Origin: a virus
IMG/VR virus record: IMGVR_UViG_3300024348_000069
Coordinates: 1 to 48,426 of that record
DNA: 48,426 nucleotides
Direction: 5' to 3' (one strand)
Each line of letters opens with the position of its first letter. Position 1 is the first letter of the stretch. Made by a program: the position numbers and the translations under genes. Positions 10,343-48,426 of this stretch are shown here, one piece after another. The notes below the pieces were generated by a model that was not told where the DNA came from, did not search any database, and saw nothing but the letters and a program-made list of their open reading frames with translations.

Positions 10343-10524
10343 GTATAGACACAACATTCGAGAGACGTGAGTCGGCAATAATTAACACTGATGTTTCTGC
10401 ATTTCGTTCAGCTAAAGCTAGGATAGAGCAGACTAAGTTTATTAAATCTATGGAGCAACGCATATATAAATTAGAGTGTGCGGTAGAATCGCTACAACAA
10501 ACATGTAAAGAGAAATCGAAATGA
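10339..10524 (+). CDS. Small coiled-coil protein coupled to baseplate genes
   Basis: A 61-residue protein that starts in an ATGA overlap with the DUF4815 gene and ends in an ATGA overlap with the S74 fibre gene. This double coupling argues strongly that it is real. The second half (SMEQRIYKLECAVESLQQT) shows heptad spacing of Ile, Leu, Val and Leu and would form a short coiled coil; the first half is charged. It has no signal peptide or membrane segment. A role as a trimerisation adaptor or assembly helper between the DUF4815 protein and the fibre is inferred from position. I do not recognise a named family. Confidence 0.72.
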   Translation: MSIDTTFERRESAIINTDVSAFRSAKARIEQTKFIKSMEQRIYKLECAVESLQQTCKEKSK

Positions 10525-11825
10525 GCATAACATTATCCCAAATTACAAACGAAAATACTTTCGGCATCTGGAAAGATAGAACGAATGCGATCATTACAGG
10601 TCTAGGGACTGTCGTAACTCTAGGAGACACTGCTTCGAACAACACAGGTAATATTTCTTTGACTGGCAACGTGAGCGCCGCAGGTAAACTCATTGCTAAC
10701 ACTATAGACTCTGTGAATGGTAACCTAATAACAGTTGACGAAAACGTTCATATAAATGGATATCTAGACTTAGACTCGCAATCGAGTGGCACAGCTTCAG
10801 TATTAAACATGAGGAATAATGGAACACTTACGTGGGTCATGTCAACCAACGCAAATCACACAGATTTATCTTGGAAAAATGGACTAAAGGAACTTATAAT
10901 TGATGGAGATGGAGTGGATTCTTCTACTGCATTGTTGACTGGCAATAATATTAAATTGGATAAAGGTCTTCTTCCGTCATCGATAGACGCAAACACAACA
11001 GGTAGCGCCGCAACAACTGCTAAGTGGACAACTTCAAGAACCGTAACTTTTATCCGAGACACAGATTTAGCCGGTGATGTAACTGGTAGTTTTTCTATAG
11101 ATGGCTCGGGTGACGTGTCTGATGTAAAGTTAGCTGTAGCAGACAATAGTCATAATCACACAACCTCTAACATCACAGACTTTGCTACTGCGACAAGTGG
11201 ATTTGCTCTTAAATCTGGAGCTAGTTTTGTAGGTGCAGACGGAGTTATCAAAGTAGGATACAATGATTACATTCAACTCGGTGGGATCCAGGGATCAAAT
11301 CTGGCGGGCGGAACTCTTGGCGAGGCTTATATTAAATATGGATCCAATATAGGTGGTAGTCCCAGGTTACTAACAATAGGTCTAGAACCAACTGCCAGTG
11401 CTAGTACTACACCAGCTGGTATGATACTTGAGTTACAGGGTAAGAGTTTGAGTATTAGAAATAATGATGCTATTAAAATTGGCTTTAGTAGCGATACTGG
11501 CGACATCACAGCATTCGGCGACATCACAGCATTCGGCTCTTTCTCTGATCGAAGACTGAAAGAAAATATTGTTAAGATTAAAAATCCTTTAGATAAAATA
11601 TCGCAAATTTCTGGATATACTTTCAACTATATCGGTGACGATGAGCCTATGACTGGTGTTATCGCACAAGAAATTGAAGAAGTTTTGCCTGGGATAGTCT
11701 ATGAGACAGAATCAGTTGACGGAACTTCAGCTAAAGCAGTAAGACATGGAAACATAGTTGGACTTCTAATAGAGGCGATTAAGGAACTTAAGGCCGAAGT
11801 CGAAGAACTCAAGAAGGAAAAGTAG
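10521..11825 (+). CDS. Short tail fibre with C-terminal S74 self-cleaving chaperone
   Basis: 434-residue fibre-like protein. The N-terminal half is Thr/Asn/Gly-rich with strand motifs (NISLTGNVSAAGKL, HNHTTSNITDFATATS) typical of trimeric fibres. The last 93 residues form an intramolecular chaperone (peptidase S74) domain beginning SDRRLKENI. The Ser-Lys pair used for autocleavage in this family (spacing SDxRLK) is present as Ser342 and Lys347, so the chaperone should be released after trimer folding. GVIAQEIEEVLP and a terminal Leu/Glu/Lys coiled coil complete the domain. A perfect 18-bp tandem duplication lies just before the cleavage site. It may be the functional counterpart of the T4 short fibre, but no gp12 motif is visible; the sequence only shows an S74 fibre. 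Confidence 0.85.
   Translation: MSITLSQITNENTFGIWKDRTNAIITGLGTVVTLGDTASNNTGNISLTGNVSAAGKLIANTIDSVNGNLITVDENVHINGYLDLDSQSSGTASVLNMRNNGTLTWVMSTNANHTDLSWKNGLKELIIDGDGVDSSTALLTGNNIKLDKGLLPSSIDANTTGSAATTAKWTTSRTVTFIRDTDLAGDVTGSFSIDGSGDVSDVKLAVADNSHNHTTSNITDFATATSGFALKSGASFVGADGVIKVGYNDYIQLGGIQGSNLAGGTLGEAYIKYGSNIGGSPRLLTIGLEPTASASTTPAGMILELQGKSLSIRNNDAIKIGFSSDTGDITAFGDITAFGSFSDRRLKENIVKIKNPLDKISQISGYTFNYIGDDEPMTGVIAQEIEEVLPGIVYETESVDGTSAKAVRHGNIVGLLIEAIKELKAEVEELKKEK
11501..11536 (+). repeat. Perfect 18-bp tandem duplication before the S74 cleavage site
   Basis: The unit cgacatcacagcattcgg occurs twice back to back, at 11501-11518 and 11519-11536, and encodes GDITAFGDITAF in frame. The second copy ends eight bases before the Ser codon of the predicted autocleavage site. 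Perfect identity suggests a recent slippage duplication or a length-variable linker. Confidence 0.95.
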
Positions 11826-11827
11826 AG

Positions 11828-13177
11828 ATGGCTATTACTTCATCTGATCCCGATGATAATGTAAACACCAGACCACCTGCTCTTAGTTTTGGATCTGCGG
11901 CATTGGCTGCGGGTCAAGCAGATTCAAACGCAGATGGCACTCAAAGTTTAAGAGTAGAATTTCCATCTGAAACTGACACTGCTACATCATCCGCACCTGA
12001 AGGAGCATCCCTAAGTGAGTACTATAAAGACGGCGGCATAGTTCCTGCAAACATACCCGAAGTCGAAGAAGTCGCTAACGAGTACGTGCCTGAAACGCTA
12101 AGAGTACCTGGTTTGCATCCACCTGACGAGGATCTTTATGAAGATGGTCCAGGTAGAGGTGTGACGTTCACATCGAGACCATCACTCAACGGCGATCCAT
12201 TCTACATCAGATTACCTTCCAACACTGGTGGAGTTGGCACCGTAAGATATGTTTGGGGTACGAATATACAATTTGATGTTGCTAACAGTAGCATGGTTTC
12301 CGTATTATTTCCAGTAGTGTATAATGGCCAAGAATACAAGCGTTCCATCCTCAACTCAACTGTTTACACATATACCGAAACTGATGGAATCGAGTACCAA
12401 TATGTTCAAATTGCAAGAAGACCGGTACCTATAGCTGGTACACCATCACGAGATATAAATGATAGTGTTCCTAGAAGTGGACCTATTAAATTCTCGGATC
12501 TATATGGTGCTCAAAGAATTATAAACAATACGATAACTGTGCCTGCACTAGAAACATCTAATCTAGAGAGTGAAAGAGGAGTTGAGCCAGACGGATCACA
12601 GGGTGCCCTATTTGGCTCAGGTCTGAGCATGGGTGCAAATACCACGAACGTTAATTACTGGCCTACAGGATTTACACCGAATGCTGTGTTGAAAAGAGTT
12701 AGCTTTGATATAGGATTTGATGCCAGAATAACAGTCACATCAACTGGTGGTAATGTGCCATTCACAGTCAAAGGAAGTAAAATCGTGAATAACGGAAACT
12801 ATCTAAGACTAGACATAAGATATCCAGGCTGGAGAATAATTGGTCCTAGCGGAGGTGCTGTTATGTCAAGCTTCAATGCAGGAGAAAGCATAGGCACAAG
12901 TGAAACCAGATTTATCCCAGCTTTTGGCATAACAATAGATGAAGATCCAGGAGCGGACACATCAGTGGCAATTCCGGGTGCGAATAACAACTTAAATCCA
13001 CTTCCCTTCATACCAACGAAAGTTGTGGACAATGTTACTGAAAGAGGCACATATTACTTAGAGTTTACCGCTCAAGTAAGAAACTATTCGTTTACGAATG
13101 TCTTCAACCCACAAATAATACCCGCAGGGATATATTGGAAAACAGAAGCGTTTGATATAAAGATTGAAACTACTTAA
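11828..13177 (+). CDS. Virion structural protein, fibre/spike-like
   Basis: 449 residues, starting two bases after the S74 fibre stop. Residues about 1-100 are acidic and low-complexity (Asp, Glu, Ser, Ala). They include LSEYYKDGGIVPANIPEV, and later (about residues 205-230) NDSVPRSGPIKFSDLYGAQ, both patterns I associate with tail-associated proteins of marine phages (SEYY-GGG-VP and SGPIxFSDxYG). The rest is predicted beta-rich with no catalytic motif. The late promoter for the next transcript lies in the gap after it, so this gene is probably the end of the preceding unit. The exact place in the virion is unknown; a collar, whisker or small spike are alternatives. Confidence 0.55.
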   Translation: MAITSSDPDDNVNTRPPALSFGSAALAAGQADSNADGTQSLRVEFPSETDTATSSAPEGASLSEYYKDGGIVPANIPEVEEVANEYVPETLRVPGLHPPDEDLYEDGPGRGVTFTSRPSLNGDPFYIRLPSNTGGVGTVRYVWGTNIQFDVANSSMVSVLFPVVYNGQEYKRSILNSTVYTYTETDGIEYQYVQIARRPVPIAGTPSRDINDSVPRSGPIKFSDLYGAQRIINNTITVPALETSNLESERGVEPDGSQGALFGSGLSMGANTTNVNYWPTGFTPNAVLKRVSFDIGFDARITVTSTGGNVPFTVKGSKIVNNGNYLRLDIRYPGWRIIGPSGGAVMSSFNAGESIGTSETRFIPAFGITIDEDPGADTSVAIPGANNNLNPLPFIPTKVVDNVTERGTYYLEFTAQVRNYSFTNVFNPQIIPAGIYWKTEAFDIKIETT

Positions 13178-13195: not shown

Positions 13196-13203
13196 TATAA
13201 ATA
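13196..13203 (+). promoter_or_regulatory. T4-type late promoter (TATAAATA)
   Basis: Exact TATAAATA preceded by C, in a 61-base gap, 35 bases before the start codon of the tailspike candidate. T4-type late promoters are recognised by gp55-containing RNA polymerase. Location in a true intergenic gap with a short predicted leader makes this convincing. Confidence 0.75.
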
Positions 13204-13238: not shown

Positions 13239-16211
13239 ATGACCATAAAATTTAGCGGATTAAGTGCGATTACGACACCAGCAAATGCTGATCTCTTTGC
13301 TCTGTCCGACACTTCAGCAACCGCAAGTAAGAAGATTACGTTTGCTGACCTTAAAACATCTATCATAGACGCTAGTACATTCTCCTCTAGTGGACCTAAC
13401 ATACCTTTAATAATTACAGGATTAAATGCTTACGATAGCGGAAATGGTAATGCACTTAAAGCAACTCAATTATATTCTGGCGGTGCATATAGAGATGCCT
13501 CATACTTTTTAACGTACGGTAATATTGCTGGAGCACCACCTATACCGGCGGATGTAAAAGACTTAGCCAACACAACAGGATATGTAAGATTTCAAGGAGC
13601 TGTAGCAAACTCGGGTACAGGACTTGTATGGAGTGGATCAGGAACCAATAACACTGGTAACTCGACCACAATATCAACTAGTAATATACCAGAAGGCACA
13701 AACCAATATTACACTCTCGCTAGAGGAGCTGAAGCGGTAGTATCAAACTTTGGCGAACAATTTAATATCTATAATAGCACATTCGATAAGGGTGATGTTA
13801 GAGATAGTCTAGACGCAGAGGCAGCAACGTTTAGAAATATTGTAGTCTCTGACGGTCAAAACCAATCCAACACCATACGATTTGCTTCTGGTAGTTACAG
13901 TAAGAAAGCTAACTATGCTAAAGGTCAAATCTTAAGGCTTTATGGAGCATCAACACTCTTTGCTTCTGACGCAATGGCAACATCATTCTCTGTCACTGCT
14001 ACAGGATTTGCATCAACTAGTGGAACGTCTAAGACCGGCACGGGTGGTACGATAAATTACTCTTATAAGATTTGTGAATTTGATATAGTTACTGGAGAGA
14101 TTTCTGCGGCTTCTGCGGCAATCACTAGACCTATAGGAGTTCCGACAACATCTGGAGCAAGTACGGTTGCTGGAGCATTCAACGCATCAGTGTTTAATAA
14201 AGTACTATTCTCTAGTGTGCCTGCTGATAAAGGCATACTCATATACAGACAAATAGGAAGCAGTGCCTTCGAACTTGCAACAGTCGCAGGAAGAAAAGAA
14301 GTAGATGATGGATATTGGATTGACTATCAAGCATTTGATTATACCTCATGGTCTGGAAAGAATGATGTCACTAACACGTATACAGCAATCACTCATTTCC
14401 CGCTAACACCTCCAAGTGTAGCTAAGAGAGGTTGGGTAGATAAAACTGTCACGTCTGTTGTAGATAACGGCGGCACATTCGATGTGGTCTTAGACGATTT
14501 TGTGTTTGTGAATGCAGGCAATGCTGTTCAAGTATCACACAATGATACGCAAATTATTCAATCAGCTATTGAGTCAAACTCTGCTGTAGGCAAAAAGAGT
14601 ATCGTACTTAATGCTAAAACATATAACTCTTCGCAAATATCTATCCCAGATAACTTTGGACTAGTAGGAACATCTTACATCACTAAGATCAAGAAATTAG
14701 CTTGGTCTGGAGGAGAAGCTGGTGCAGTAAACTCTACGTTCATCAAATCGAAAAACAACTCTGGAGCTACTTCGCTCTCTATAGTTGGAGTAGACATCGA
14801 AGGTAATGCGGCAAATCAATTTTTATTCCCAGACAATACTGTAAAAGAAAATAACTATCTTTTAAATTTTGGAATTAACTGTAGCTCACTTCTACTAGAT
14901 AGAGTTCGAATCAACAACTCAGTAGGCGGTGGAGTTTGGGCAACATCACCTATTGAGATGAAAATCAACACAAGTGAGATCATAAACAGCGGGACAACAG
15001 ATAGATACAGCTATTCTCCTTTAGTCGCTGACTTCGGTCAAGACACTATGATCGTGGGTAATAGATTTCAGAACTACACGAACTACCTAGACACTTCTGT
15101 GACCAATAAAGGTATTGTTGCAAACAACGTCATCAATAACTGTGGTAGTGGATTGTTTGTTTACGGATCAGTATTCTTTATATCATCACCTAATGTTTTA
15201 ATGGGACCAGCACAAGAGTTCTTACCAACTCCAGATATTCTCAACTCAGAGTACGATTTGATTAACATCAATCTAACATCTGCGGCTGCATCGAACTCTG
15301 CGTTTAATAGTCCTATACATGTTTATCAAGAAGACGGTGCAGTGTTTGATTTATCTAAGACAGATGGATCAATTCAGACAGTGGAATACAGAGCATTCTA
15401 TCTATCGAAGACTGCTGGAGGTGTTGAAGAGATTTACGGCACATCAACAAATTCAGGCTCTTTCGTTATCGGTAAGAGATATACAATTCTTACTTTAGGA
15501 AACACAACTCAGGCTAACTGGAATAAAGCCGCAGGCACAGGTGGTTCAAACGGATTAGGCACTGGTACTAGAACGTATTCAGTAGGAGACGATTTCTCAG
15601 CGGCTACAGTAGGCACAGGTGGATCAGGTATGGGTACAGCAACTAGCGGCGGTGTTGATACTATAGAAATTACTGACAGACCAGGTGACGCAACTAGGGC
15701 TAACGGAGAATTTGCTTTTCAGATTCCATCAGCAACAGTACAAGCGATTAAAACCGCAAATGGGGCACACTCTTACTCCACATTAAAAGCGGCTAACGCA
15801 CTGCATGTAGGAATTGGTTGGACAGCATCTCAAAGAACAGAAGTTGCCGCAGGTAACATAAGTACGGCAGCAGGCGTATGGCAAGTAGATAATTCTGATA
15901 ACTCTGTAACAACAACCAATAACGGTACTAATCCAACCTACACATTTTCAATGACAAATCTTAAGTATCTGGCTATAGGACAGAAAGTTAAATTCGACAG
16001 TCATACAGGATTTGCCAATGGCGGAAACATAACAACGGGGATAGTAAAATCAATAACTACCACAGCAGGTACATCGGTCGTAGTATTACAGTTCATGGGC
16101 GCTGGAGGAGGCACGAATAATGCATCCCAGCAAAACTTAACCGCAAGCACAGCGGGTGGAACAATAAATATAATCGATACCTTTGTGATGGCACAAGGAA
16201 GGATAATCTAA
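13239..16211 (+). CDS. Beta-helix tailspike candidate
   Basis: 990-residue virion protein. The N-terminus (KFSGLSAITTPANADLFALSD then SKKITFADLK) is a common virion-anchoring module of marine phage fibres and spikes. Residues about 271-391 form a fibronectin-like domain with ILIYRQIG. Residues about 436-671 look like a right-handed parallel beta-helix of the pectate-lyase superfamily: NDTQIIQSAIES, a KKSIVLNAKTYNSSQISIP strand turn, then repeated short strands with Asn ladders (IVGVDIEGN, KINTSEIINSG, GIVANNVINNCGSG). Such folds in phages often bind or cut surface polysaccharide, but I cannot point to a catalytic pair, so enzymatic activity is not claimed. A GNTTQANWNKAAGT module (from about 743) follows. 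It is the first gene after a late promoter and one base ahead of the next gene. Confidence 0.7.
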   Translation: MTIKFSGLSAITTPANADLFALSDTSATASKKITFADLKTSIIDASTFSSSGPNIPLIITGLNAYDSGNGNALKATQLYSGGAYRDASYFLTYGNIAGAPPIPADVKDLANTTGYVRFQGAVANSGTGLVWSGSGTNNTGNSTTISTSNIPEGTNQYYTLARGAEAVVSNFGEQFNIYNSTFDKGDVRDSLDAEAATFRNIVVSDGQNQSNTIRFASGSYSKKANYAKGQILRLYGASTLFASDAMATSFSVTATGFASTSGTSKTGTGGTINYSYKICEFDIVTGEISAASAAITRPIGVPTTSGASTVAGAFNASVFNKVLFSSVPADKGILIYRQIGSSAFELATVAGRKEVDDGYWIDYQAFDYTSWSGKNDVTNTYTAITHFPLTPPSVAKRGWVDKTVTSVVDNGGTFDVVLDDFVFVNAGNAVQVSHNDTQIIQSAIESNSAVGKKSIVLNAKTYNSSQISIPDNFGLVGTSYITKIKKLAWSGGEAGAVNSTFIKSKNNSGATSLSIVGVDIEGNAANQFLFPDNTVKENNYLLNFGINCSSLLLDRVRINNSVGGGVWATSPIEMKINTSEIINSGTTDRYSYSPLVADFGQDTMIVGNRFQNYTNYLDTSVTNKGIVANNVINNCGSGLFVYGSVFFISSPNVLMGPAQEFLPTPDILNSEYDLININLTSAAASNSAFNSPIHVYQEDGAVFDLSKTDGSIQTVEYRAFYLSKTAGGVEEIYGTSTNSGSFVIGKRYTILTLGNTTQANWNKAAGTGGSNGLGTGTRTYSVGDDFSAATVGTGGSGMGTATSGGVDTIEITDRPGDATRANGEFAFQIPSATVQAIKTANGAHSYSTLKAANALHVGIGWTASQRTEVAAGNISTAAGVWQVDNSDNSVTTTNNGTNPTYTFSMTNLKYLAIGQKVKFDSHTGFANGGNITTGIVKSITTTAGTSVVVLQFMGAGGGTNNASQQNLTASTAGGTINIIDTFVMAQGRII
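16163..16170 (+). promoter_or_regulatory. Weak late-promoter-like AATAAATA
   Basis: A one-base variant of TATAAATA, inside the end of the tailspike gene and 42 bases before the next start. Relatives of T4 tolerate variation at the first base as I recall, so weak activity is possible; chance is as likely. Confidence 0.25.
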
Positions 16212-16212: not shown

Positions 16213-19200
16213 ATGTCAAGTATAACAAATGTTAATAATAATGCCAGCGTAGTAAACGTAGGAAGAACAACTCCAGTATCACCGGGGGTTCAGCCAGCGT
16301 CTAAATCTATTCCTGTCGTAGTCGCATCTGATCAGGTAGCAATTCCTGTAGAAGAGCAAAACAAAGTACAATCTGAAGTAGCACTGTCGCTTCTAGGTAT
16401 TCCACGTGCTGAGGTCGCTTTAGGCATCTTTGCAGACGTTAACACGTATGATGTTAACCCAACAGAGTGGTCATCTAGTCCTCAATATCACATCACTGGT
16501 CACGGTATCAAGCATCTTCCCAACGAAGCTGGTGCATTAGTAGAAGCTCCTAGAAACAAGACAGCAGTCTTGACATCTAAACGTTTCTTCAGATATCAGC
16601 CTGGTCGTGTATCTGCCGCAACATTTGGTGTTAAGAGTACTACAAGTGCCGCTAACTTCGCACAGAATCCTGCTATCAGAAAGTTCGGAATCTACGATAA
16701 CTTTGATGGATATTTCTGGGAAACTAGAAACGATTCTCAAGAAGATAACTTCTCTGTAGTAAGACGCTCACAATCAATGATTAAGGCTCCTACTTCACCA
16801 ACAGGTATTGCAGGCCAATTCTTAAAAGGCGGAGCTCCTGGCAATGCAACAGTGGCAGTAACACAGAACGATGACTACAGAGTTATCGGACAAGGACAAA
16901 AAGAGACTGTTGTTGAAAGTACGCTTCTCGTAAAAGATAGAAAACTAATCACAGATAATAGATTTTCAATTGTCGATACCGCACTCGCAGCCGCAGTATC
17001 AGCTTACAGTACTACGGGCAGTGTTAGTGTCACATCGCCTAAAAACGGTACCACTGTAAACGGATACTCCATTACATCAGGAAGCTATACTGCATCTGGC
17101 AATTTCTATACAGACCTAGCATTATCGATTAACGCTGTTACCAATGCTCCCGATATCTCAGCCGCACAAGTTGAACTAAAGTGTAAACGTGATATGGATT
17201 ACTGGATTGAAAATTATCTATTAGATATGGAATACGGTGGAACTGCACACACTAATTTAAACGTGAGTAACTATGCAACTGGTTTATTCCCACAGATTGC
17301 TACATTTGAAAAAGCAATTCACGCACAACTTAAAATTGTTCTAGATGGATATGCTGGAATTACTTCAGCAGGCGATACTAAGATCACATCACTCACTGCT
17401 ATCACTCAAACAGCATTTAACCGCAATAATGGCCAATCTGTACTAGTGCCTTCTGTGCCCACTTCTGGAGCATATGGAACAAGAAATAAACTAGAAACAG
17501 TCTTCGCAGTCAAGAAAGAGTATTGGGCATATGTTGTATCTGTATCAACAGCCGCAAATGCCGCTATCACATATAATGTTCCTAGTACCGGACCAAGTGC
17601 CAGCATTACCCCACTTGATATTAAATATAAGTGTCAGCGAGACGTTGGATACATCATCGATGGATACTCAAATGACATATCTGGTGGAGGTGATGCTGAG
17701 ACAAAGTACAACATGACTATGTACTTCAAGAATGGTCGACCTAATACATCTGATCCCGGCGAGGGAATGTCTATCTATTCACAGACAAACGGCTCCGGTG
17801 TTTTAGCAGAGATCGAAAGACACACACACCTTAGAGATAAGATTAAAGCAGATTTAGTAACATATGGCTTTGGTACAACGACAGCAGAATACAAAAAGCT
17901 TGTAATTCTTGCAGACAGAGTTATATCTAACTTCTCTGTCGAGAATCAGCAAAGCATGGATTTAGGAGAAAAAGGATTTGCAGGTAACTTAGTTGCTTTA
18001 CGTGACGGACTAGTTGTGACTCACGCCGCTGTCTTTGACCCAACTCTTCTTAAGACTGCTGAAAGCATAGTTACAGTTGCTATTGGATCAGACGCAGGGG
18101 CTAATCTGGGTACACCAAACTCATTCAAGCTATCTAAAGGACATGTTACCTTTGGTCAACACGTTAGAGTTAAGACTTGGTCAAACGTTGCTTCAGTCAC
18201 TACTTGTGGTACTTTAGTACCAGGTACAGTATACAAAGTTGTTAAAGTGTATGGTCCTAAGGGTAATGAGTTTACATTACAAGACGAGGCAGGCTTAGCA
18301 CAAGAATTCACTGTTCAACAAGCAAGTGATGCTGGCACAATGTATCTTGAGACAGTCGTACCGTTCATCTTCCCTAAAGTGTATCAGCCTTCAACGGCTG
18401 GATATTGGGACGACTTTAGTCCTAGTTTAGATATTAACTCAGACGTATTCCCCAAAGGAATGGTATTTCCATACATGTATGCAAGTGACACCAATCTTTT
18501 AAGTGACGCTTCAGAATCTAAAAAAGTAGGATACATTAACACTGCATTAGATATTTCTACAAGTGGTAATTTGAATACGGTCTGCACACAAATGGATACT
18601 GTAAACTTTACACCAGAATATATCAACTGGATTAAGAACAACGTTAAGCCGGAGTACTATGGAGTTTATGATTATCGTGTTCCTAGATCACGTTTCAGTC
18701 ACGATACTCTAGATGGTAAGAGTTCTGCCTCAGGTACTTCTAAGAATAGAGTGTACAGTGATCTCGCAACTGGAGAAAGTGGTATCGCTCGACCTGGTCA
18801 GAGATATTCAATAGGATCAGGCACAAGCGAAGTGCAACAGTTCACAGACAGTCTCTACAACTTCGACTTTACTAAAGTTACCATGCTTAAGATTGAATTC
18901 TCTTGGTACGGTGCTGTTGGTGCATTGTTCTTAGCATATGTTCCAGTAGAGAACGGAGAAGCGAGATGGGTGAGAGTGCATCACCTTCGTGCATCGAATC
19001 AGTTAAAGATTGCCTCTCTGGGTAATGCGACTCTTCCTATCACATACACAACATTTGGCGGTGGTGATACTAAGTCTCTAGGTGATGGAGAAGATGCTAC
19101 TCCCACCGACAGAGGATACGGAGCCGATTCACACTCTATCGTCAAATATGGTGCTTCTTACTATATTGATGGAGGTGATAGAGGTACTGTTCGCTTATAC

Positions 19201-29801: not shown

Positions 29802-29836
29802 TTTAAATCCAATGTTGTTGATGGCTCTGTTCTTAT

Positions 29837-29844: not shown

Positions 29845-29848
29845 AATA
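29841..29848 (+). promoter_or_regulatory. Late promoter (TATAAATA) for the rightward fibre genes
   Basis: Exact TATAAATA in the divergent intergenic gap, 26 bases before the start codon of the small virion gene. It is the right half of the same palindrome that carries the minus-strand promoter, so two polymerases could not occupy both halves at once. Confidence 0.75.
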
Positions 29849-29874
29849 CAAGTAGCATACATTAGGGAAAAATC

Positions 29875-38148: not shown

Positions 38149-38433
38149 ATGGCAATTCATGAATTAGACGACGGCGAAGAAATGTTGGATCCCATGACTG
38201 GTGATCCGATAACAGATGAGGCTCATAGATTTCACATTTTTAGTGAAATTGCAGAGGCACCCATGAAGACACTGAGATTAGAGAGAAACTACAGACTTGC
38301 AGAAACGGACTGGATGGCAAACTCTGACGTAACAATGAGTGCAGAGTGGTCTGCATACAGGCAAGCACTCAGAGATATCACAGATACGTATTCGAGCCCT
38401 AACGATGTAGTATGGCCTACTAAACCAGAATGA
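38149..38433 (+). CDS. Phage tail assembly chaperone-like protein
   Basis: 94 residues. The C-terminal half reads LRLERNYRLAETDWMANSDV...WSAYRQALRDITDTY and ends VVWPTKPE. This is the pattern of the phage tail assembly chaperone (APC) family: RxxRNxxLxxTDW, a polar loop, WxxYRQaLRDI and a terminal W-P-x-x-P. Members accompany fibre or tail genes and help fold or attach fibres; the partner is not known here, but the flanking fibres (before and after) are obvious candidates. The N-terminus is acidic (HELDDGEEMLDPMTGDP). The leader (ATTAGGG, A-rich spacer) is nearly the same as that of the small virion gene at 29875. Confidence 0.82.
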   Translation: MAIHELDDGEEMLDPMTGDPITDEAHRFHIFSEIAEAPMKTLRLERNYRLAETDWMANSDVTMSAEWSAYRQALRDITDTYSSPNDVVWPTKPE

Positions 38434-38438: not shown

Positions 38439-38446
38439 TATAAATA
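38439..38446 (+). promoter_or_regulatory. T4-type late promoter (TATAAATA)
   Basis: Exact TATAAATA in the gap after the chaperone-like gene, 44 bases before the TTG start of the next fibre. It is followed by a leader with a strong GGGGAG ribosome site that is repeated before the fibre gene at 46596. Confidence 0.72.
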
Positions 38447-38469: not shown

Positions 38470-38498
38470 CGCTATTGGGGAGAGTGAACCTTGGCAAC
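38470..38498 (+). promoter_or_regulatory. Duplicated translation leader, copy 1 (TTG start)
   Basis: 29 bases spanning the ribosome site and first codons, identical at 27 of 29 positions to 46575-46603. GGGGAG lies eight bases before the TTG. An in-frame TGA sits one codon before it, so no longer in-frame start exists. Confidence 0.8.
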
Positions 38499-41400: not shown

Positions 41401-42624
41401 GGATTAAACTTACAACGTAATGAAACATGCTCGACTTCTTATATTCCGTCTGATACAAAATTTACTTCACGTGCAAGCGTAGCAACGTATTACGATGAAA
41501 CGGGTACGATCACGACAGCACCCGCACAAACCGCACGACATGGTTATGCTTATGACGGACGTAACTGGGTAGAAACTGGACTGATACTAGAAACAGCTTC
41601 TACTAACATGCTTTACCATAGTACAAAGGGAAGTGATTTATACGGAGATGTACTGGCAGCAGAAGCTATATGGACTATGACTGATAGTTCGACTGATGTA
41701 ACTGCACCTGATGGCTCTTTGAAAACAACTAAAGGAGTAACAGGTACTAGCGGTAATAGCTGGTATTGGCAAGTTAGTCCGTTCTCATATACAAACGGAA
41801 ACACATATACTCATAGTGCTTGGATAAGATGTGCGGCAGGCACAACCGGCACTGTTGCGATGAACGTATATCCTCAAAATGGGGCGACTAGTGTTACTGC
41901 AACTGACGAATGGCAAAGAGTTTCGGTTACTTTTGTTTATAATAGCGGAGTCGCTAATCCTTATATTGGATTTGTTTCTCCTCAACATAGTAGAACATTT
42001 TACTTTTGGGGTTGGCAGATTGAAGAACAGAGCCGACCAACATCATATATAAAGACTTTGGGTTCGGCTGTAACTCGGGCGGCAGATGTCTCAACCAGTG
42101 TAGCATATACTAGAGCGCAAGATTTTGCTCGTATCGATGACATCTCTTGGTATAATCCAAAAGAGTCTACTATTTACGGAGAAGCTACGTCTCTCACTGG
42201 CGACTCGAATATGGGAGGGTCTGGCTGTCTATGGGGTATCACAGACGGAACAAGTACTAATAGATACTTGCTGAGAAGATATACCACTGGTGGCAGTGCA
42301 ACTCACAGCGGTTATACTTTTAGACTTTGCGATATAGATTCTAATAACGATTATTTTCCTTCAGTGACAGTTTTACCTCTTTGGCAAGACACTGAAATAC
42401 ATAAGATGGCGTTATCTATAAAACCGAACTCTCAGATCGCCGCCGCAGACGGAATTGATGCACAAATGCCTAGCATAACAACTGCCGAATTCGATAAACC
42501 AACTATGGTTGAAATAGGATTTGCGGGGTCATCTGCGGCGTGGAACGGACATATTAGAAAAATTTCATATTATCCAGAGCAGTTACCCATTACAGAATTA
42601 AAAGCACTTACGGAGAATAACTAA
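38491..42624 (+). CDS. Tail fibre with two tandem carbohydrate-binding-like domains
   Basis: 1377 residues, TTG start fixed by an in-frame TGA just upstream and a strong GGGGAG site. The N-terminus is ATTKAFELAQLSALT. Around residue 146 is the GDLTVEG...NTTDLNVEDKNIT cassette, followed by shaft motifs SVGIGTQIPYG, VGIGTGTDVDELLHI, NVGIGTASPGAALHV and DVGIGTQTPAHKLDV. Residues about 814-1007 and 1029-1207 are two similar jelly-roll domains, each opening GLLIEEARTPIM or GLILETASTNML, containing a long YTLSVYAK or YTHSAWIR strand, and closing with TSYIPS or TSYIKTLGSAVTRAAD. These resemble carbohydrate-binding modules of phage fibres. The C-terminus WNGHIRKISYYPEQLPITELKAL is a common ending after such modules. 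No S74 domain. It is linked by TAATG to the next gene. Sugar binding is inferred, not shown. Confidence 0.8.
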   Translation: MATTKAFELAQLSALTTVDAGIDISGNITDQSIVGSTSDSTADALNIKDSSADTLLRVRNDGVVLIEDNYLYVTATAGAYFDGSIKARGGIHSDTAGAKLNLSDTEGVNVASTTTSTSSTTGALIVGGGAGIAENLYVGGNTVISGDLTVEGSTVTLNTTDLNVEDKNITLNYHATADTSTSADGSGITIQDAVNSTTDATILWDATGDKFDFSHSIAVTSTNPVLTLQDTDATTTYNRTEFQNSGGGLNFNTRHSDGTFVSTDYQIGKNASGAVEHKWFIGTTARSRITSAGDAEWYEANSGSPRVGMHWDYTDGYLGIGDTAPEAPLFINGNESAVTDLTPVLWARSKTGASITQMNVKGDQIQFGGGGTLDTSPTMTIDYGSNSVGIGTQIPYGVTHWQKSSTVNLVATNTGADGQADATVMSLIGQARGYSNNLAKLASIDFKTDPTTWYYGAMTFNVANLDGTDISRTPLEAMRINRLGQVGIGTGTDVDELLHIEKSAGTTLVKTEVAANSTVGLEIAKTGTTTQSWRIVDGQTVNGVLEFYDLTNTTTRMSIKGNGNVGIGTASPGAALHVVGPAARPTDLASLDTASTAQFQSDASNLHSLYIAENASGSIIQVTDGTTNSSTAKPLALQPFGGEVGIGTLTTAPTATLQVGNLVSGETGNVIINSEGGNPVGLKVASRTNRARIQVADNDTSGFIIAEGSIFSLGFADQASDNNVNITNAYDVGIGTQTPAHKLDVVGAIGASQVRHSIRPSLNIDFANSKELDSRIKFYRDSVATYYDSSGKLKYANLNEPRLDHDPYTGKSKGLLIEEARTPIMTYSEHLHIALPVEFSAYWKTNYAIAPNGKMDAAALFGGGNASARATTSYSGAGTYTLSVYAKNNASNASGRFAIWAYSGGWVFSRTYTWSGDTVVPSDASDTTIEVIGNGWVRVTATWTTTGNGSFQLSPGAYANYASGDSTLFWGLNLQRNETCSTSYIPSDTKFTSRASVATYYDETGTITTAPAQTARHGYAYDGRNWVETGLILETASTNMLYHSTKGSDLYGDVLAAEAIWTMTDSSTDVTAPDGSLKTTKGVTGTSGNSWYWQVSPFSYTNGNTYTHSAWIRCAAGTTGTVAMNVYPQNGATSVTATDEWQRVSVTFVYNSGVANPYIGFVSPQHSRTFYFWGWQIEEQSRPTSYIKTLGSAVTRAADVSTSVAYTRAQDFARIDDISWYNPKESTIYGEATSLTGDSNMGGSGCLWGITDGTSTNRYLLRRYTTGGSATHSGYTFRLCDIDSNNDYFPSVTVLPLWQDTEIHKMALSIKPNSQIAAADGIDAQMPSITTAEFDKPTMVEIGFAGSSAAWNGHIRKISYYPEQLPITELKALTENN

Positions 42625-45023
42625 TGAGTAAACTAATTGGAAACAATCCTAATCAAGTGCCGAGTAATGCAGACTTAGGCACTGCCGCATTCATGGATAA
42701 GAAAGACTTTCTACTCTCAAGGGGTAGTGAAATGTCTGCGATCAATTCTGTTATTCCTGGTAATGCTTCTGACTTGTTCATCTATGATACAAGTAAAGAT
42801 AGCGACAATGGCGCTTGGAGAAAGCGGACACAGAACACAAGTTGGTATAATGAGAGATTGAATACGACAACACGTGGTAGTCGTAGAGAATTTCCTGCTG
42901 TTGCTGTTATTGTAGCTAAAGTCGATAGAATAACTATTTACGATGGTGATGACCCAACTCTTCCTATGTGGATGACATTCGAACCAGGCGGAATTATTGA
43001 TTGGGCAACGAGTTCTCAAACACGATTATCTGTTCATATGTTAAACGGTCAACTCGCTGAAGTTGGACATGACGGTGGTAATATATTCAGCTTCATAGAA
43101 GACTACGTTTATGTATTGTATTCCTCAATTAACTACCTAATAACTTCTAGTAGAACAATCGAAGGAAGAAATAATCCAGCAAGTTATATTGCTGGCACGG
43201 GCACTGCGCTTAATACCTATGTTGTAGGCTCGTATGCAATGGAAGATGTAGCCATGACCGTCCTTCCTAACGCACCAATAGACGAAAAGACTGGACTACC
43301 TGCGGTAACGACAGCGGTTGCTACTGATCTCGGTGTGAGTGTGATTAAAGGCAATAAGTCTGTTACTACTATAACATCGTCTACTGCGGCAGGAGGTGGA
43401 TATGATCCACATCACGTATCATTCGATAGAGATAATAGACTAGTACTACTTCAGGCTTATGACAGTTCTGGCATTTATTTAGATATATTTGATGACATTC
43501 CTCTATCAAATGTTGCTGGAGCACTATCGTATAGTGCCGCTACAAGTTATACTTACTTAGACACTGGGTTAAACATTACAGGTACTACTGCGGCTAGAAC
43601 ATTTAAAGACTTAGTACACGTTAAAGATGATATAGCTATGGGCACCGATCAGCAGTTGACCCTATTAAACTCTGTTCCAAATAATCCCACTAAATCGATG
43701 GTCGCTTATATTGATAATGATTTCGCCACAGGTTGGATGGTAGGCGACACTAAGTTAGCTACACTGTGTAACACTGACGTAAGTGATCTTCATGGTACTG
43801 ATTTCGTTAGTAATGGCAACTTTAGTAGTTCTAATTTAAGTCAATTCAGTGCTTACAATTCTGGATCATTAGGAGCATCAATAGCTGTTGTGGGTGGAGA
43901 GTTAAAACTGACTCACACTGGCACAGCAAACTATGCGTTTGCAACATTTACATGGGCGGCGGAGATAGGGCAAGTATACAGAGTTAGCTGTGATTTGAAG
44001 AACGGCAACGCATCTTACGCTCATTTTAAACCCCATTCGGGCTGTACTTGGAACCCCGGTGATAAAACACATGGCGGGACTTCCTACGAATCGACAACTC
44101 ATACAGTGACAGCTACAGCTACAACTGCTCAACTTCGTTTACAATTAGTAGGATCTAATGGTTCATACGCATACTTCGATAACGTCTCAGTGACTAAAGC
44201 AGAACATGATCGTACTGTAAACAACGAAAGCCTTAAAGTATTCGGCACTGTTCCTAAAACTCCTGTAATGCCAGGCGCTGAACTAATGGCATATGGACCG
44301 TTTACTTCAAGCAATTACTTAGAGCAACCATACAACAGTGATTTAGATTTTGGTACTGGTGATTTCATGTACTCTATGTGGATATATAGAAGCTCTTTAC
44401 CGACTAGCACACACGAAAGATGGTTTGGTACTGCCGCATCAAACGGTGACGATAGAATAGACATATTCTCTAATGCCGGCACTGATAATATAGCGTTTTA
44501 TTCAATAGATGCTGGTGCCGTGAGGGGCGATATTAGAATTACGGGTATAGCCATAAATAAATGGCATTGTTTACATTTTACACGACAGGCTAACGTTTAT
44601 CGTATATATCACGATGGGGAACTGAGAGGTACCAATGTAGGTTCAGCAACATTAGCTAACTATGCCGCAAACACAGATAGAAGAACTCATATAGGTGCGG
44701 CAGAGCATTGGGATACAGGCAGGGCTGTACTAGATGGAAAAGTGGCTTTAGCTAAAATTTCTGGAACAGTACCCACAGCCGAACAGATTAAGAGAATGTA
44801 TAATGAAGAAAAGCTTTTATTCCAAGAGAATGCCAAAGCTACTCTATTCGGAAACAGCAGTACCAAAGTGACCGCCTTGGCTTATGATGACACTACAGAC
44901 GTACTTCATGTCGGTAACGGCACAGGTAGATCAGACTTTCGTGGATTACGTAGAATAAATAACACAACTAGAGCAATCACTTCTGCAATGTCAGCGGTTG
45001 ATGGTTTAATTGTAGAGGACTAA
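42624..45023 (+). CDS. LamG-type adhesin
   Basis: 799 residues. The N-terminus GNNPNQVPSNADLGTAAFMD is a common fibre-anchor module, followed by a AWRKRTQNTSWYNERLNT...SRREFPAVAVIVA segment and a region with beta-propeller-like strands (about residues 200-360: DPHHVSFDRDNRLVLLQAYD). Residues about 394-530 look like a CBM-type jelly roll (FVSNGNFSSSNLSQF ... YFDNVSVTKAEHDR). Residues about 565-730 form a laminin-G/concanavalin A-like domain: FGTGDFMYSMWIYRS, a NKWHCLHFTRQANVYRIYHDG strand pair, and RRTHIGAAEHW, ending with EQIKRMYNEEK. Such domains bind glycans in other systems. It is likely a receptor-binding protein or distal fibre component. It is coupled (TAATG) to the preceding fibre, so the two may be used in one structure. 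Confidence 0.8.
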   Translation: MSKLIGNNPNQVPSNADLGTAAFMDKKDFLLSRGSEMSAINSVIPGNASDLFIYDTSKDSDNGAWRKRTQNTSWYNERLNTTTRGSRREFPAVAVIVAKVDRITIYDGDDPTLPMWMTFEPGGIIDWATSSQTRLSVHMLNGQLAEVGHDGGNIFSFIEDYVYVLYSSINYLITSSRTIEGRNNPASYIAGTGTALNTYVVGSYAMEDVAMTVLPNAPIDEKTGLPAVTTAVATDLGVSVIKGNKSVTTITSSTAAGGGYDPHHVSFDRDNRLVLLQAYDSSGIYLDIFDDIPLSNVAGALSYSAATSYTYLDTGLNITGTTAARTFKDLVHVKDDIAMGTDQQLTLLNSVPNNPTKSMVAYIDNDFATGWMVGDTKLATLCNTDVSDLHGTDFVSNGNFSSSNLSQFSAYNSGSLGASIAVVGGELKLTHTGTANYAFATFTWAAEIGQVYRVSCDLKNGNASYAHFKPHSGCTWNPGDKTHGGTSYESTTHTVTATATTAQLRLQLVGSNGSYAYFDNVSVTKAEHDRTVNNESLKVFGTVPKTPVMPGAELMAYGPFTSSNYLEQPYNSDLDFGTGDFMYSMWIYRSSLPTSTHERWFGTAASNGDDRIDIFSNAGTDNIAFYSIDAGAVRGDIRITGIAINKWHCLHFTRQANVYRIYHDGELRGTNVGSATLANYAANTDRRTHIGAAEHWDTGRAVLDGKVALAKISGTVPTAEQIKRMYNEEKLLFQENAKATLFGNSSTKVTALAYDDTTDVLHVGNGTGRSDFRGLRRINNTTRAITSAMSAVDGLIVED

Positions 45024-45025: not shown

Positions 45026-45718
45026 ATGACTGTATACGCTAACAAGCCTACTTTTAACGTAAGAGAAAAACTGAAAGAGTTGGATCGTAAACCGGGTGAC
45101 TTTGGTAATAAAATATATCAGACTAATACTTCAGAAGACTGGAATAAAATTACAAACTTAGATGTATCGCCTCTTCCGTATTGGACAGGATATTATCCTA
45201 CAAACAGTGCTGTAGGGCAAACTAATTCCACTCATACATTTTTAGATAGTGGAAACCAGAGATATTACACATTAAATAACGGGAATAATGGACCAAACGC
45301 AAGGTTTAGAATGCATGGAACATTGCGTGGAGAGTTTGAATTAGGATTTACTCTTGGTTATTCTTGGGGATGGTCAGGCATCTGGGTAGCACCGAGAAGT
45401 AATTTCAACCCAACGTCTAATTATCATAAAGATGCTAATAAACCTCACGTTAGAATATTTAATAATAGTTCAAATAATCTCGCTTATGCTTCTTACAAAG
45501 ATTACGGTGATACTAGTTATACAAATACTACACAAAATTCAGGATTTTCATCTGGAATGTTTAAATTATGGAGAGATTCAACAGGTATGATGTATTTTAG
45601 ACCACCTAATAACACTGACTACAGTTTGTTTAGAACTGACGAGGACATTTTTATAGCAAATGAGACTCAGCCGCCAAACTTTGTAAAACTAGAATATGTT
45701 TTATGTGCATCTCACTAA
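45026..45718 (+). CDS. Fibre-like virion protein
   Basis: 230 residues, two bases after the LamG gene. The N-terminus YANKPTFNVREKLKELDRKPGDFG followed by a TSEDWNKI helix matches the INVREKLKELD-type module at the start of marine phage fibres. The rest is rich in Asn, Tyr, Thr and Phe (RYYTLNNGNNGPNARFRMHG, ELGFTLGYSWGWSGIWVAP, FKLWRDSTGMMYFRP) and looks like a single beta domain; the MHGTLRGEFELGFTL...WVAP stretch has a lectin-like feel but no definite motif. A small adhesin or tip subunit is inferred. A weak AATAAATA lies 64 bases upstream inside the LamG gene. Confidence 0.6.
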   Translation: MTVYANKPTFNVREKLKELDRKPGDFGNKIYQTNTSEDWNKITNLDVSPLPYWTGYYPTNSAVGQTNSTHTFLDSGNQRYYTLNNGNNGPNARFRMHGTLRGEFELGFTLGYSWGWSGIWVAPRSNFNPTSNYHKDANKPHVRIFNNSSNNLAYASYKDYGDTSYTNTTQNSGFSSGMFKLWRDSTGMMYFRPPNNTDYSLFRTDEDIFIANETQPPNFVKLEYVLCASH

Positions 45719-45736: not shown

Positions 45737-46234
45737 ATGAATTTTTTAAATATAGACATCATGGTACTAACCCAAGCAATTATGAATACTGGTTGGGAAA
45801 AGTCGATGAACGTCAATGATGACGGTAGTATAGAATGGCACGGAGAATCGGGCTATCCTACGAATCAAGAGATATACACTGAAATTGATGAACTAATAAC
45901 AGACTGGACATATCTTCAGGCTAAATCTAGACTAGCACAATATGTACTATCAGTTGGACGTGAAGAAGTTATTGAAAACCAAGCTACAGGCGAACAAGTC
46001 TGGAATGAAGAAACTGAGGAAATGGATGACGTTATGGCTGATGTTGTTACTGTCACTGCTATCGATGCACTAGATGCAACTGTCGAAATTATCACGTATG
46101 ATGAGAATGAAGTAGCTACAACATCCACAGTTGAGAACCCTCTCATCACAGCAGATGTAGCAGAACGTGCAGAAGCACAAGTAATTGTGGATGCAACACC
46201 ACAATCAGTTATTGATACGTATAACGGAGAGTAA
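45737..46234 (+). CDS. Acidic fibre-associated protein, assembly-factor candidate
   Basis: 165 residues, very acidic, with a clear GGAG ribosome site. Residues about 29-70 (GSIEWHGESGYPTNQEIYTEIDELITDWTYLQAKSRLAQY) resemble the front part of tail-fibre assembly proteins, where an IxW strand and a PTxxEI helix precede a helical LxxxRxxL segment. Unlike the protein encoded at 38149 it lacks the final WPxxP. The second half is an Ala/Val/Thr/Glu/Asp-rich low-complexity helix. It stands one base before the next small gene. Best read as a fibre-associated assembly factor; the similarity is partial. Confidence 0.55.
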   Translation: MNFLNIDIMVLTQAIMNTGWEKSMNVNDDGSIEWHGESGYPTNQEIYTEIDELITDWTYLQAKSRLAQYVLSVGREEVIENQATGEQVWNEETEEMDDVMADVVTVTAIDALDATVEIITYDENEVATTSTVENPLITADVAERAEAQVIVDATPQSVIDTYNGE

Positions 46235-46235
46235 A

Positions 46236-46559
46236 ATGATATACCTAAAAGCCGAAGATGAAGCAACTTTCATAACCGCACTGAAGACAGCGGGCTGGGC
46301 ATGGGATACAGAGGATGATGCAGTTGATGTCGATGCATACAACGCAACACATAGCCTTGATATCATTGGCAGAATTCACTTAGAGACTGGTAACATGATT
46401 GAAGTTGAAGGTCCAGATGGAGAAGAAGTTGAAGTGCCGGAAACAGCACCGACTGATGGTTGGCATGCTAACTTATTACTACACGGTGAAGAATTACCTA
46501 GCGAACTTTCTGGATTTGTAATTGATGCGCCTAGTAATCCTGCAAGACGATTTGCATAA
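46236..46559 (+). CDS. Small conserved fibre-cluster protein
   Basis: 107 residues from the chosen ATG. A longer frame starting at 46185 would overlap the previous gene by 50 bases and lacks a supported start, so it is rejected. The sequence IYLKAEDEATFITALKTAGW, HSLDIIGRIHLE, TDGWHANLLLHGEELPSEL and a final PARRFA follows a small phage protein family I recall near tail-fibre genes (MIYLxA start, LDxIGxI, DGWHxNL, and an xRxFA/xRVWA end). The function of that family is unknown to me. Acidic middle with PDGEEVEVPE. It begins one base after the previous stop, suggesting co-translation with the acidic protein and a paired role for the fibre genes upstream. Confidence 0.7.
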   Translation: MIYLKAEDEATFITALKTAGWAWDTEDDAVDVDAYNATHSLDIIGRIHLETGNMIEVEGPDGEEVEVPETAPTDGWHANLLLHGEELPSELSGFVIDAPSNPARRFA

Positions 46560-46574: not shown

Positions 46575-46603
46575 CGCTAATGGGGAGAGTGAACCGTGGC
46601 AAC
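46575..46603 (+). promoter_or_regulatory. Duplicated translation leader, copy 2 (GTG start)
   Basis: Second copy of the 29-base leader at 38470-38498, with two differences, one of which changes the start codon from TTG to GTG. GGGGAG spacing and the in-frame TGA one codon before the start are kept. Confidence 0.8.
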
Positions 46604-47288
46604 GAATAAAGATTTCATAGTCAAAAATGGGCTGTCCGTTGGCGAAGACATCAGCGTATCAGGCTCTGTCACATCGAATCTCCAATTTGACGATTCTGTA
46701 GAGATACAACTTGGAACAGATTCCGACTTCCGAATATATCACGATAACACTCATGCTTGGATAAGAGATAGTGGCGATGGTGACTTATTTGTAGATACTG
46801 ATGGAGCAAAAATATCTCTGATCAGTGGCGGTAGTTACGCTACTGGTAAAATGGCAGACTTTGTAAAAGATGGAGCGGTTACACTCTATCATGACAATTC
46901 TGGTAGACTAGCTACCACTTCTACTGGTGTAGACATTACAGGCGATCTAGCCGTATCTGGCGACTTAAACATTACTGGTGATATAAATTCAGTATCAGTA
47001 ACAGATTTAGATGTCACAGACAAAACAATCACATTAGCAAGCGGTGGAGGTGGCGGTAGTGCCGCTGATGGCGCAGGAATAATCGTAGACGGTGCTAGTG
47101 CATCTTTAGTCTACGCACTAACAGGCGATAAATGGGTCTTCAATAAAGCTCCGTATCTCAACACGAATAGAATACTAACGAGTGCTGACACGGGTACTGG
47201 CAACTCACTTGACGCAGATATGGTCGATGGTAAACACTTCGATGATATAATTTCAGAAGCAACAGCACTTGCAATTGCATTAGGATAA
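46596..47288 (+). CDS. Short modular tail fibre protein
   Basis: 230 residues, GTG start set by the in-frame TGA and the GGGGAG site. Contents: an ATNKDFIVKNGLSVGEDI anchor similar in style to the 38491 fibre, a FRIYHDNTHAWIRDSGDGDLFV shaft strand motif, a GDLNITGDINSVSVTDLDVTD cassette (from residue 122) shared with three other fibres, the ADGAGIIVDGASASLVY and KWVFNKAPYL continuation, and a C-terminal SLDADMVDGKHFDDI motif typical of fibres. It is much shorter than its relatives and lacks a tip domain, so it is probably one segment of a multi-protein fibre with the downstream gene products. Confidence 0.75.
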   Translation: MATNKDFIVKNGLSVGEDISVSGSVTSNLQFDDSVEIQLGTDSDFRIYHDNTHAWIRDSGDGDLFVDTDGAKISLISGGSYATGKMADFVKDGAVTLYHDNSGRLATTSTGVDITGDLAVSGDLNITGDINSVSVTDLDVTDKTITLASGGGGGSAADGAGIIVDGASASLVYALTGDKWVFNKAPYLNTNRILTSADTGTGNSLDADMVDGKHFDDIISEATALAIALG

Positions 47289-47292
47289 AAAC

Positions 47293-47628
47293 ATGGCAAA
47301 TATATTTAAATTAAAAACATTCGACGGATCAAGTACTGCGCTGAACACAAACATGACTGTGTACACAGCACCTTCAGCAACGACATCTATCGTCTTAGGA
47401 TTAACACTATCTAACATAGCATCAAACACGGTCTATGCGACAGTGATAATTGAGAACAATGATGGAGACAACATCAACTTTCTCAAGAATATTCCTATAC
47501 CGACAGGCTCAGCCGTTGAGGTTATGGCAGGAAATAAGATCGTCTTAGAGACATCTGATGTACTCAAAGTCAAATCAGATACAGCTAATTCTATTGATAC
47601 AGCAATGAGTGTAATGGAGCAAACTTAA
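47293..47628 (+). CDS. Small virion protein next to fibre genes
   Basis: 111 residues, four bases after the previous stop. It has a one-domain beta pattern: TVYTAPSATTSIVLGLTLSN, ATVIIENNDGDNINFLKNIP, IPTGSAVEVMAGNKIVLETSD and a final SIDTAMSVMEQT. I recall the same architecture (TSIVxGLxLxN, KNIPIPxGS, GxKIVLExxD) in small proteins beside fibre genes of marine and other tailed phages, of unproven function. The stop overlaps the following fibre start by one base (TAATG). A connector or capping role is inferred from position. Confidence 0.65.
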   Translation: MANIFKLKTFDGSSTALNTNMTVYTAPSATTSIVLGLTLSNIASNTVYATVIIENNDGDNINFLKNIPIPTGSAVEVMAGNKIVLETSDVLKVKSDTANSIDTAMSVMEQT

Positions 47629-48426
47629 TGTCTTACATTGGCAATTCGCCCGAAAACGTATTAAGAAATCGTAGAGCAATCTATGAATTCGTTGCAACTG
47701 CTGGTCAAACAGCCTTTTCTGGCGTTGATTCAAATGGTGCCACATTAGATTTACTGCAAGACAACGAACAGTCAGTCTTTCTGAACGGCGTTAGAATTAT
47801 TGCCACTGATGACTATACAGTATCAGGCGAAACACTCACTCTAACTCAAGCCGCATCTGTTGGTGATATTCTCATAGTAGAGACGCAAGGTGAAGTCGCT
47901 AACGCTACCACTTATACAAGAAGTGAGGCTGATGCACGATACGTAAATTACAATGGAGATGTGATCTCTGGTAACATACAGATAGCTGGTGATTTGACTG
48001 CAAACAGTCTTGCCATTGATACAGATACTTTTTATGTAGATGCGGCCAACAACAAAGTTGGTATTAATCTTACTGGACTAAATCCTCAAGAAGCACTTCA
48101 TGTCGCAGGCAATATTCGAGTAAACAATAATCAAGAATTTAGAACGACTGATACTGGTGGAACTACTCGTACAATCATGCGGGTAAACAATTCTGATCAA
48201 TTGGAATATGGATGGAGTGGTGCAGGTCCTGTCAAGTTTATGGGCGGTGGGTCATATGCCGAGAAAATTCGTATTCATACTGACGGCAATGTAGGCATTG
48301 GCGGTGTTACTGCTCCCGTCACTGCACTACATGTTGACCCAGGCTATGTAACGTTAGGCACATCATCTGGAACAGACAACTCTTGGATAAACAACGTAGA
48401 AGACGGCAACTTAGAATTAGTCAACG
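47628..48426 (+). CDS. Tail fibre protein, N-terminal part (cut by window edge)
   Basis: The ATG overlaps the previous stop, and the frame stays open for 266 codons to the window end, so the C-terminus is missing. N-terminus SYIGNSPENVLRNRRAIYEFVAT is a common fibre-anchor module; a VFLNGVRIIATDDYTVSGETLTL beta-sandwich, an ARYVNYNGDVISGNIQIAGDL turn, and shaft motifs KVGINLTGLNPQEALHV and NVGIGGVTAPVTALHV follow. The shaft motif matches those in the 33804 and 38491 fibres. Whether it ends in an S74 or lectin domain cannot be seen. Confidence 0.8.
   Translation, partial: MSYIGNSPENVLRNRRAIYEFVATAGQTAFSGVDSNGATLDLLQDNEQSVFLNGVRIIATDDYTVSGETLTLTQAASVGDILIVETQGEVANATTYTRSEADARYVNYNGDVISGNIQIAGDLTANSLAIDTDTFYVDAANNKVGINLTGLNPQEALHVAGNIRVNNNQEFRTTDTGGTTRTIMRVNNSDQLEYGWSGAGPVKFMGGGSYAEKIRIHTDGNVGIGGVTAPVTALHVDPGYVTLGTSSGTDNSWINNVEDGNLELVN

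Follow-up and report, generated by a model that had tools for sequence, protein, structure and literature searches.

The window analysed here is the whole 48,426-nucleotide stretch of IMG/VR record IMGVR_UViG_3300024348_000069, a viral fragment classed as linear, and this report concerns the long run of tail and fibre genes that follows its baseplate genes. Its base composition is about 40% G+C, and scans of the window for tRNAs and Rfam families gave no match. A nucleotide search of the window against phage records also found no match, so relatives were collected by protein comparison. Genes are named by their first coordinate and lie on the plus strand except where stated. T4-type baseplate genes open the window in the order gp6, gp7-region wedge, gp8 and VrlC according to PHROG searches and profile comparison with phiM12. 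They encode the C-terminal part of a gp6-type wedge protein cut by the window edge (1..567; phrog_219, E 2.5e-22, and a phiM12 gp6 profile match), a gp53/gp7-region wedge protein (571..3294; phrog_17744, E 9e-96; phiM12 wedge subunit, E 9e-114), a gp8-type wedge protein (3306..5150; phrog_438, E 9e-45; phiM12 gp8, E 3e-51) and a VrlC-type baseplate protein (5168..10342). The last matched the annotated VrlC of phiM7/phiM19 (34% over 97%) and of Mosig (E 8e-193) as well as the DUF4815 chain 9euf (E 3e-33), and among isolates the closest VrlC is that of Sinorhizobium phage phiM12 (34%). The wedge genes in this order mark a T4-superfamily myophage, and we judge the virus to be an uncultured marine member of that group and the locus its host-attachment gene cluster.

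From 10339 to the end the window is almost completely coding. A first-pass annotation had proposed a continuous fibre and adhesin locus beginning at 10521; such a locus is real, with almost only virion and fibre coding from the baseplate genes to the right edge, and its start has to be moved to 10339, directly after VrlC, where a 61-amino-acid protein (10339..10524) occupies the same position in 12 relatives and matches Mosig (E 1.6e-5). Between 10521 and 48426 there are 23 closely spaced open reading frames (ORFs), 14 of which are fibre, virion or fibre-assembly proteins by Pfam/PHROG search or through homologs, while two more (26329 and 27303) match S-TIM5 gp117 and gp116, the gp117 match being weak. 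Family searches marked 30439, 32838, 38491, 46596 and 47628 as fibre-like, and 29875 and 38149 as assembly-type proteins. Pelagimyophages carry a variable island, always between VrlC and neck gp14, that has been named the host recognition cluster (HRC) (Zaragoza-Solas 2020, PMC7029224), with a mean size of 44.6 kb in pelagimyophages and 34.2 kb in cyanomyophages (PMC7029224). The window holds the left border of such a cluster and no less than 38 kb of its length; because the locus sits at this published position, that length is ordinary. Gene-content comparison among relatives divided it into a conserved part A (10339-33800) and a variable part B (33804-48426).

After the 61-amino-acid protein, part A continues with a short fibre bearing an S74 self-cleaving chaperone end (10521..11825; PF13884, 58.6 bits), conserved at its ends and variable in the middle, and with a fast-evolving protein without family match (11828..13177), a candidate tip adhesin whose identity is 31-53% where that of the baseplate is 58-82%. 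A cassette of six genes follows. Its first product is a beta-helix virion protein (13239..16211), a homolog of S-TIM5 gp121 (profile E 3e-20); the window copy itself gave no Beta_helix match, whereas 4 of 13 homologs did, and S-TIM5 gp121 fell just below the cut-off. Two large virion structural proteins come next (16213..20295 and 20299..23832), both assigned to phrog_1645, paralogous to each other (E 2e-19) and homologous to S-TIM5 gp120 (E 1e-203) and gp119 (E 2e-144), respectively. They are followed by a leucine-rich-repeat (LRR) protein homologous to gp118 (23832..26318), a conserved protein at the gp117 position that is found in 19 relatives (26329..27306; weak gp117 profile match, E 6e-4) and, convergent with it on the minus strand, a homolog of gp116 (27303..29858; E 1.3e-12). 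The rest of part A comprises a fibre-assembly type protein resembling LtfC/phrog_3304 (29875..30216; phrog_3304, E 3e-21; LtfC sub-threshold; Mosig fibre protein, E 5e-32), a conserved 72-amino-acid protein (30221..30439; 76-99% in the four closest relatives; Mosig, E 3e-8), a fibre/virion protein (30439..32742; phrog_15769, E 3e-39; Mosig fibre, E 2e-37) and a fibre-base protein (32838..33800; phrog_17885, E 5e-11), whose first ~60 residues head fibres of 1,100-1,400 amino acids in G029, G038, G039 and G042. Part A is itself composed of two submodules, 13239 to the inverted gene in S-TIM5 order and 29875-30221-30439-32838 in Mosig order. No convincing PDB profile match was obtained for 20299, 13239 or 26329.

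The order of part A is kept in G001, G012, G018 and G025, and that from 13239 to the inverted gene in about 15 more distant contigs. The cassette recurs in dozens of uncultured phages and is colinear, with the same gene inverted, in 19 whole-contig relatives and in S-TIM5; at profile sensitivity it was absent from Mosig and S-PM2, except that 16213 partially matches an S-PM2 fibre. Protein distances of 13239, 16213, 20299, 23832, 26329, the inverted gene and 30439 tracked those of VrlC (r 0.90-0.96), as did those of gp8 (r 0.95), and none of 1,000 permutations reached the observed value. By these comparisons, most of part A is co-evolving with the baseplate and not being exchanged. In eight contigs the neck genes follow the cassette almost at once, without the fibre array of part B. 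The reading of the whole locus as an adhesion system needs dividing: it is an adhesion and fibre locus with several unrelated folds, larger than that of T4, in which a conserved virion cassette of about 23 kb tracks the baseplate and is not a store of alternative adhesins.

The LRR protein matched LRR_8 with E 2e-15 (56.6 bits against a curated cut-off of 27), and LRR_8 was also found in 15 of 16 homologs. Its AlphaFold2 model (mean predicted local distance difference test score, pLDDT, 79) confirmed the LRR fold suggested by the first-pass annotation, with LRR ectodomains as the best solved matches (Foldseek, E 2e-12) and S-TIM5 gp118 as the best viral match (Foldseek, E 2.6e-15). Concave positions of the solenoid were 46% conserved and the remaining ones 57% (8 sequences, no significance test). 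These results point to an LRR protein as a conserved phage tail component, of which no description was found in the papers searched.

The gene at 27303..29858 is a minus-strand gene in 56 of 57 loci (the remaining match is short and lies at a contig edge) and is also inverted in S-TIM5. Its true start is probably codon 20, at about 29801, because the starts of relatives align at MTTKYLKFG. An invertible segment around it was considered and rejected, as the inverted repeats are short and scattered and the orientation is fixed. The late promoter is TATAAATA in T4 and KVP40 and NATAAATA in S-PM2 (PMC2984593). Between the divergent genes 27303 and 29875, two overlapping TATAAATA boxes, one on each strand, form the perfect palindrome TATTTATAAATA (29837..29848), which leaves 35 nt to the probable start codon of the inverted gene on one side and 26 nt to 29875 on the other; shuffling gave an expectation of 0.02 per window. 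Of the 19 whole-contig relatives with the cassette, 18 have a single palindrome per contig, at this same position. Overall it is present in 20 of 37 distinct loci, which confines it to the nearer clade, and G052 has one in a region that showed no cassette. Across the relative set, 100 of 176 TATAAATA sites (57%) have a start codon 15-110 nt downstream, compared with 2.9% for random positions and 4-23% for control octamers, an enrichment that indicates T4-type late promoters before the structural genes. In the window, plus-strand boxes stand at 13196..13203 (TATAAATA, 35 nt upstream of the 13239 start codon), at 30406..30413 (25 nt upstream of the 30439 start codon and retained in G001, G012, G018 and G025) and, from the box scan, at 38439..38446 ahead of unit 2 of part B. 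Generic sigma-70 and terminator scans gave matches no commoner than in shuffles. We infer that the palindrome fires in both directions; as a putatively bidirectional late promoter it can drive both the inverted gene and the adjacent one, which could explain co-expression of the near-universally inverted gene with its neighbours. No palindromic or bidirectional late promoter was mentioned in the T4 late-transcription review searched.

Only 33804-48426 behaves like exchangeable fibres. Its fibre genes match different relatives over different segments and are thus mosaic, and they form about three tandem units whose tips have been swapped and fused. Unit 1 consists of an S74 fibre with VGIGT-type shaft repeats (33804..37619; PF13884, 57.8 bits; mosaic matches to G012, G051, G052, G018 and G001), a small protein without family match (37619..38128) and a tail fibre assembly chaperone (38149..38433; Phage_tail_APC, PF16778, E 1e-16). 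Unit 2 has a fibre shaft with jelly-roll domains (38491..42624; phrog_5939, E 1e-68), in which residues ~992-1116 resemble the RcGTA head spike fibre 6tb9 (E 7e-9), and a LamG-bearing protein (42624..45023; PF13385, E 4e-12). LamG forms a gene of its own in the window, G049 and G050 and is joined to a shaft in G001 and G012, and this fusion or fission is a reason to regard 42624 as a fibre tip. The protein after it (45026..45718) has the same neighbour in G001, G012, G049 and G050; it is followed by a perhaps chaperone-like small protein with a conserved C-terminal part (45737..46234; 52-72% over residues 59-164 in G012, G049 and G050) and a further small protein (46185..46559; phrog_18574). 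Unit 3 contains a short fibre-base protein (46596..47288), a small middle gene (47293..47628; 39-41% in G012 and G001) and a fibre gene cut by the window end (47628..48426; weak phrog_2710/phrog_18673 tail fibre match; open at the contig end). The triplet recurs in G012 and G001; the idea that 46596 is a broken fibre was rejected, since the series of a short gene, a 102-111-amino-acid gene and a fibre is found in both. The genes 38491 and 46596 have in common a 44-nt 5' leader, GGGGAGAGTGAACC(T/G)TGGCAAC, at 38463-38506 and 46568-46611 (repeat D4), which also precedes fibre genes in G012, G041 and G051 and is possibly a recombination joint. Taken over the whole locus, the several unrelated folds first proposed were recovered: S74 (twice), LRR and LamG directly, the beta-helix via homologs only, and the tandem jelly-roll of 38491 partly, through its RcGTA similarity.

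Both borders, VrlC and gp13, are present in 14 relatives, and the distance between them is 11.0 kb in G020, 22.4-23.2 kb in seven contigs (including two that hardly differ over this stretch), 40.0-42.1 kb in five and 49.5 kb in G012. Core-only relatives thus measure 22.4-23.2 kb, whereas those with a fibre array measure 40-49.5 kb. The neck series gp13-gp14-gp15-terminase lies at 59.4 kb in G012, and in G050 gp13 comes after the LamG block. Fibre coding does reach the right edge of the window, as first described, but that edge is only a contig end and no locus boundary, since relatives continue to neck gp13 beyond it. The variable tail fibres typical of the HRC are found in the mosaic part B, part A being conserved by contrast. 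No glycosyltransferases or metabolic genes, which are common in the pelagimyophage HRC without defining it, turned up when the window ORFs were scanned against Pfam and PHROG.

Several further observations concern part A and its baseplate neighbours. Within 30439, two 194-nt direct repeats (30885-31282) are 74% alike, and the homologs in G001, G012 and G018 seem short by about one copy. The gap between 30439 and 32838 (32743-32837) contains the palindromes GGTATATACC and GGCTATATAGCC, which persist, slightly altered, in G001, G012, G018 and G025, and the corresponding gap of G044 has a similar one, GCGCTATATAGCG. A module of 40-80 amino acids (..GNTT..W..AAGT....F.A...GTGTGT) is found at residues 515-575 of the 571 protein, 729-806 of 13239 and 635-700 of 20299; it occurs in 34 proteins of many families, sits where the 20299 homologs change sequence and looks like a mobile linker domain. 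In L230 and L231, the two large cassette proteins have partial homologs in the cyanophages S-CBS4 and CrV, both without VrlC, and tail parts may move between phage types. The cassette is also present in L232 (NHEZ01000047.1, beginning within VrlC) and L233, binned into Cellulomonadaceae and Opitutales metagenome-assembled genomes, which are probably mis-binned phage contigs. A host assignment from these contigs (Cellulomonadaceae TMED98, Opitutales bins) was judged binning contamination and rejected; similarities to phiM12, RcapMu and RcGTA give a weak hint of an alphaproteobacterial host, and no host is claimed.

The locus is best read as an HRC of the kind already described, with two parts joined. 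We consider it likely that in this uncultured marine T4-superfamily myophage part A is a standing tail-tip apparatus and part B a set of adjustable fibres, both under late transcription. Part A, from the S74 short fibre through the beta-helix protein, the two large paralogs, the LRR protein and the inverted partner gene to the Mosig-type fibre-base submodule, would be built into every virion, inherited with the baseplate and expressed late from its own promoters, with one palindromic late promoter serving the inverted gene and the 29875 side together. Each of the about three units of part B would combine a base or shaft with an exchangeable tip (S74, jelly-roll or LamG) and small assembly proteins, and would be exchanged by recombination as hosts change. 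The gene map, conservation, co-evolution, mosaic tips and late-promoter boxes can be read from the sequences; the LRR and jelly-roll faces would bind the cell surface, and the arrangement of the parts around the baseplate is conjectural. A marine host-recognition locus would then divide into a conserved apparatus and exchangeable fibres. Several points weigh against this account. Seven of the 23 ORFs (11828, 30221, 37619, 45026, 45737, 46185 and 47293) had no assigned function after family searches; 10521 (r 0.64) and 29875 (r 0.80) track the baseplate less tightly, and the distance comparison for 11828 rested on 5 taxa only. The inverted protein, for which a structural assignment was also sought, yielded a low-confidence model without a significant match in the fold search. 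The S-TIM5 homologs are "virion structural" by record annotation only, the presence of part A and part B products in the virion is predicted from sequence, and the window stops inside a fibre gene, so its own right border lies outside it.

The cassette might instead serve structure alone, as an outer layer of the baseplate or a collar that binds no receptor and leaves host recognition to part B, which we regard as rather unlikely. Its even and slow divergence parallel to VrlC, the fixed order and orientation and the large paralogous proteins are as expected of scaffolds. However, LRR and beta-helix folds are often ligand-binding or enzymatic, the concave LRR positions are the less conserved ones, and the eight core-only contigs reach gp13 without the part B array, so that there the cassette may have to serve adsorption itself. 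A bolder proposal, held just as tentatively, is that the cassette is a self-contained LRR-built tail-tip adsorption organ unlike the long and short fibres of T4, mounted on both VrlC-type and S-TIM5-type baseplates and driven both ways by the palindrome in the VrlC clade. The first-pass annotation had suggested parallel receptor-binding organs or a multi-host range; that several independent organs work in parallel and give a wide host range we find somewhat less probable still. This reading agrees with the presence of three or more fibre units that differ in first domain and tip (S74, jelly-roll, LamG), beside a separate LRR/beta-helix cassette, and multi-fibre phages exist, such as phiKp24 with fourteen putative depolymerase fibres (PMC9700779) and the Ackermannviridae with branched tail spikes (PMC11414711). 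Against it, the larger part of the locus evolves together with the baseplate and is not exchanged, there is a single beta-helix gene and no depolymerase set, and the different first domains of the about three units fit a chain or the branches of one organ equally well. In T4, gp34-35-36-37 are serial segments of one long fibre. A multi-host range gained no support from any analysis run. That the clustering is an assembly artefact, joining unrelated contigs or host-genome adhesin genes in a fragment whose ends are unknown, is highly improbable and for part A already refuted, as independent contigs show the same order at 45-98% identity and L003 repeats the VrlC region of the window at 100%.

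Among known systems, the branched multi-fibre phages (phiKp24, PMC9700779; Ackermannviridae, PMC11414711) likewise carry many fibre genes in one virus, but where phiKp24 and CBA120 have several beta-helix depolymerases or tail spikes, the window has only 13239, recognised through homologs, and non-enzymatic-looking tips. With phiM12 it shares the baseplate order gp25-gp6-gp7-gp8-VrlC and a fibre position between VrlC and gp13, although phiM12 holds a single fibre and assembly gene in ~3.4 kb. Late-transcribed fibre genes, dedicated assembly proteins and T4-type late promoter boxes are common to T4 and the window; T4 tail fibres use fewer genes, and none of the cassette proteins is known from T4. 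S-TIM5 gp116-gp121 has the same order of beta-helix, 16213-like, 20299-like, LRR, 26329-like and inverted genes, the 26329/gp117 pair being similar only at E 6e-4. Unlike the window clade, S-TIM5 is without VrlC, has PhoH after its inverted gene and, over the 45-kb stretch examined, lacks a palindromic late promoter. Mosig shares the 29875-30221-30439-32838 submodule, gene order included, and the cassette distinguishes the window from both Mosig and S-PM2. The locus resembles the HRC of pelagimyophages and cyanomyophages in place, size class, enclosed fibres and variability, and differs from the pelagimyophage form, which is rich in glycosyltransferases and also contains non-fibre genes of other kinds (PMC7029224, Mosig map), in holding only fibre- or virion-like and unassigned ORFs. 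To this known cluster the LRR tail protein and the palindromic promoter add new parts, which together with the S-TIM5-shared cassette are the ones worth following.

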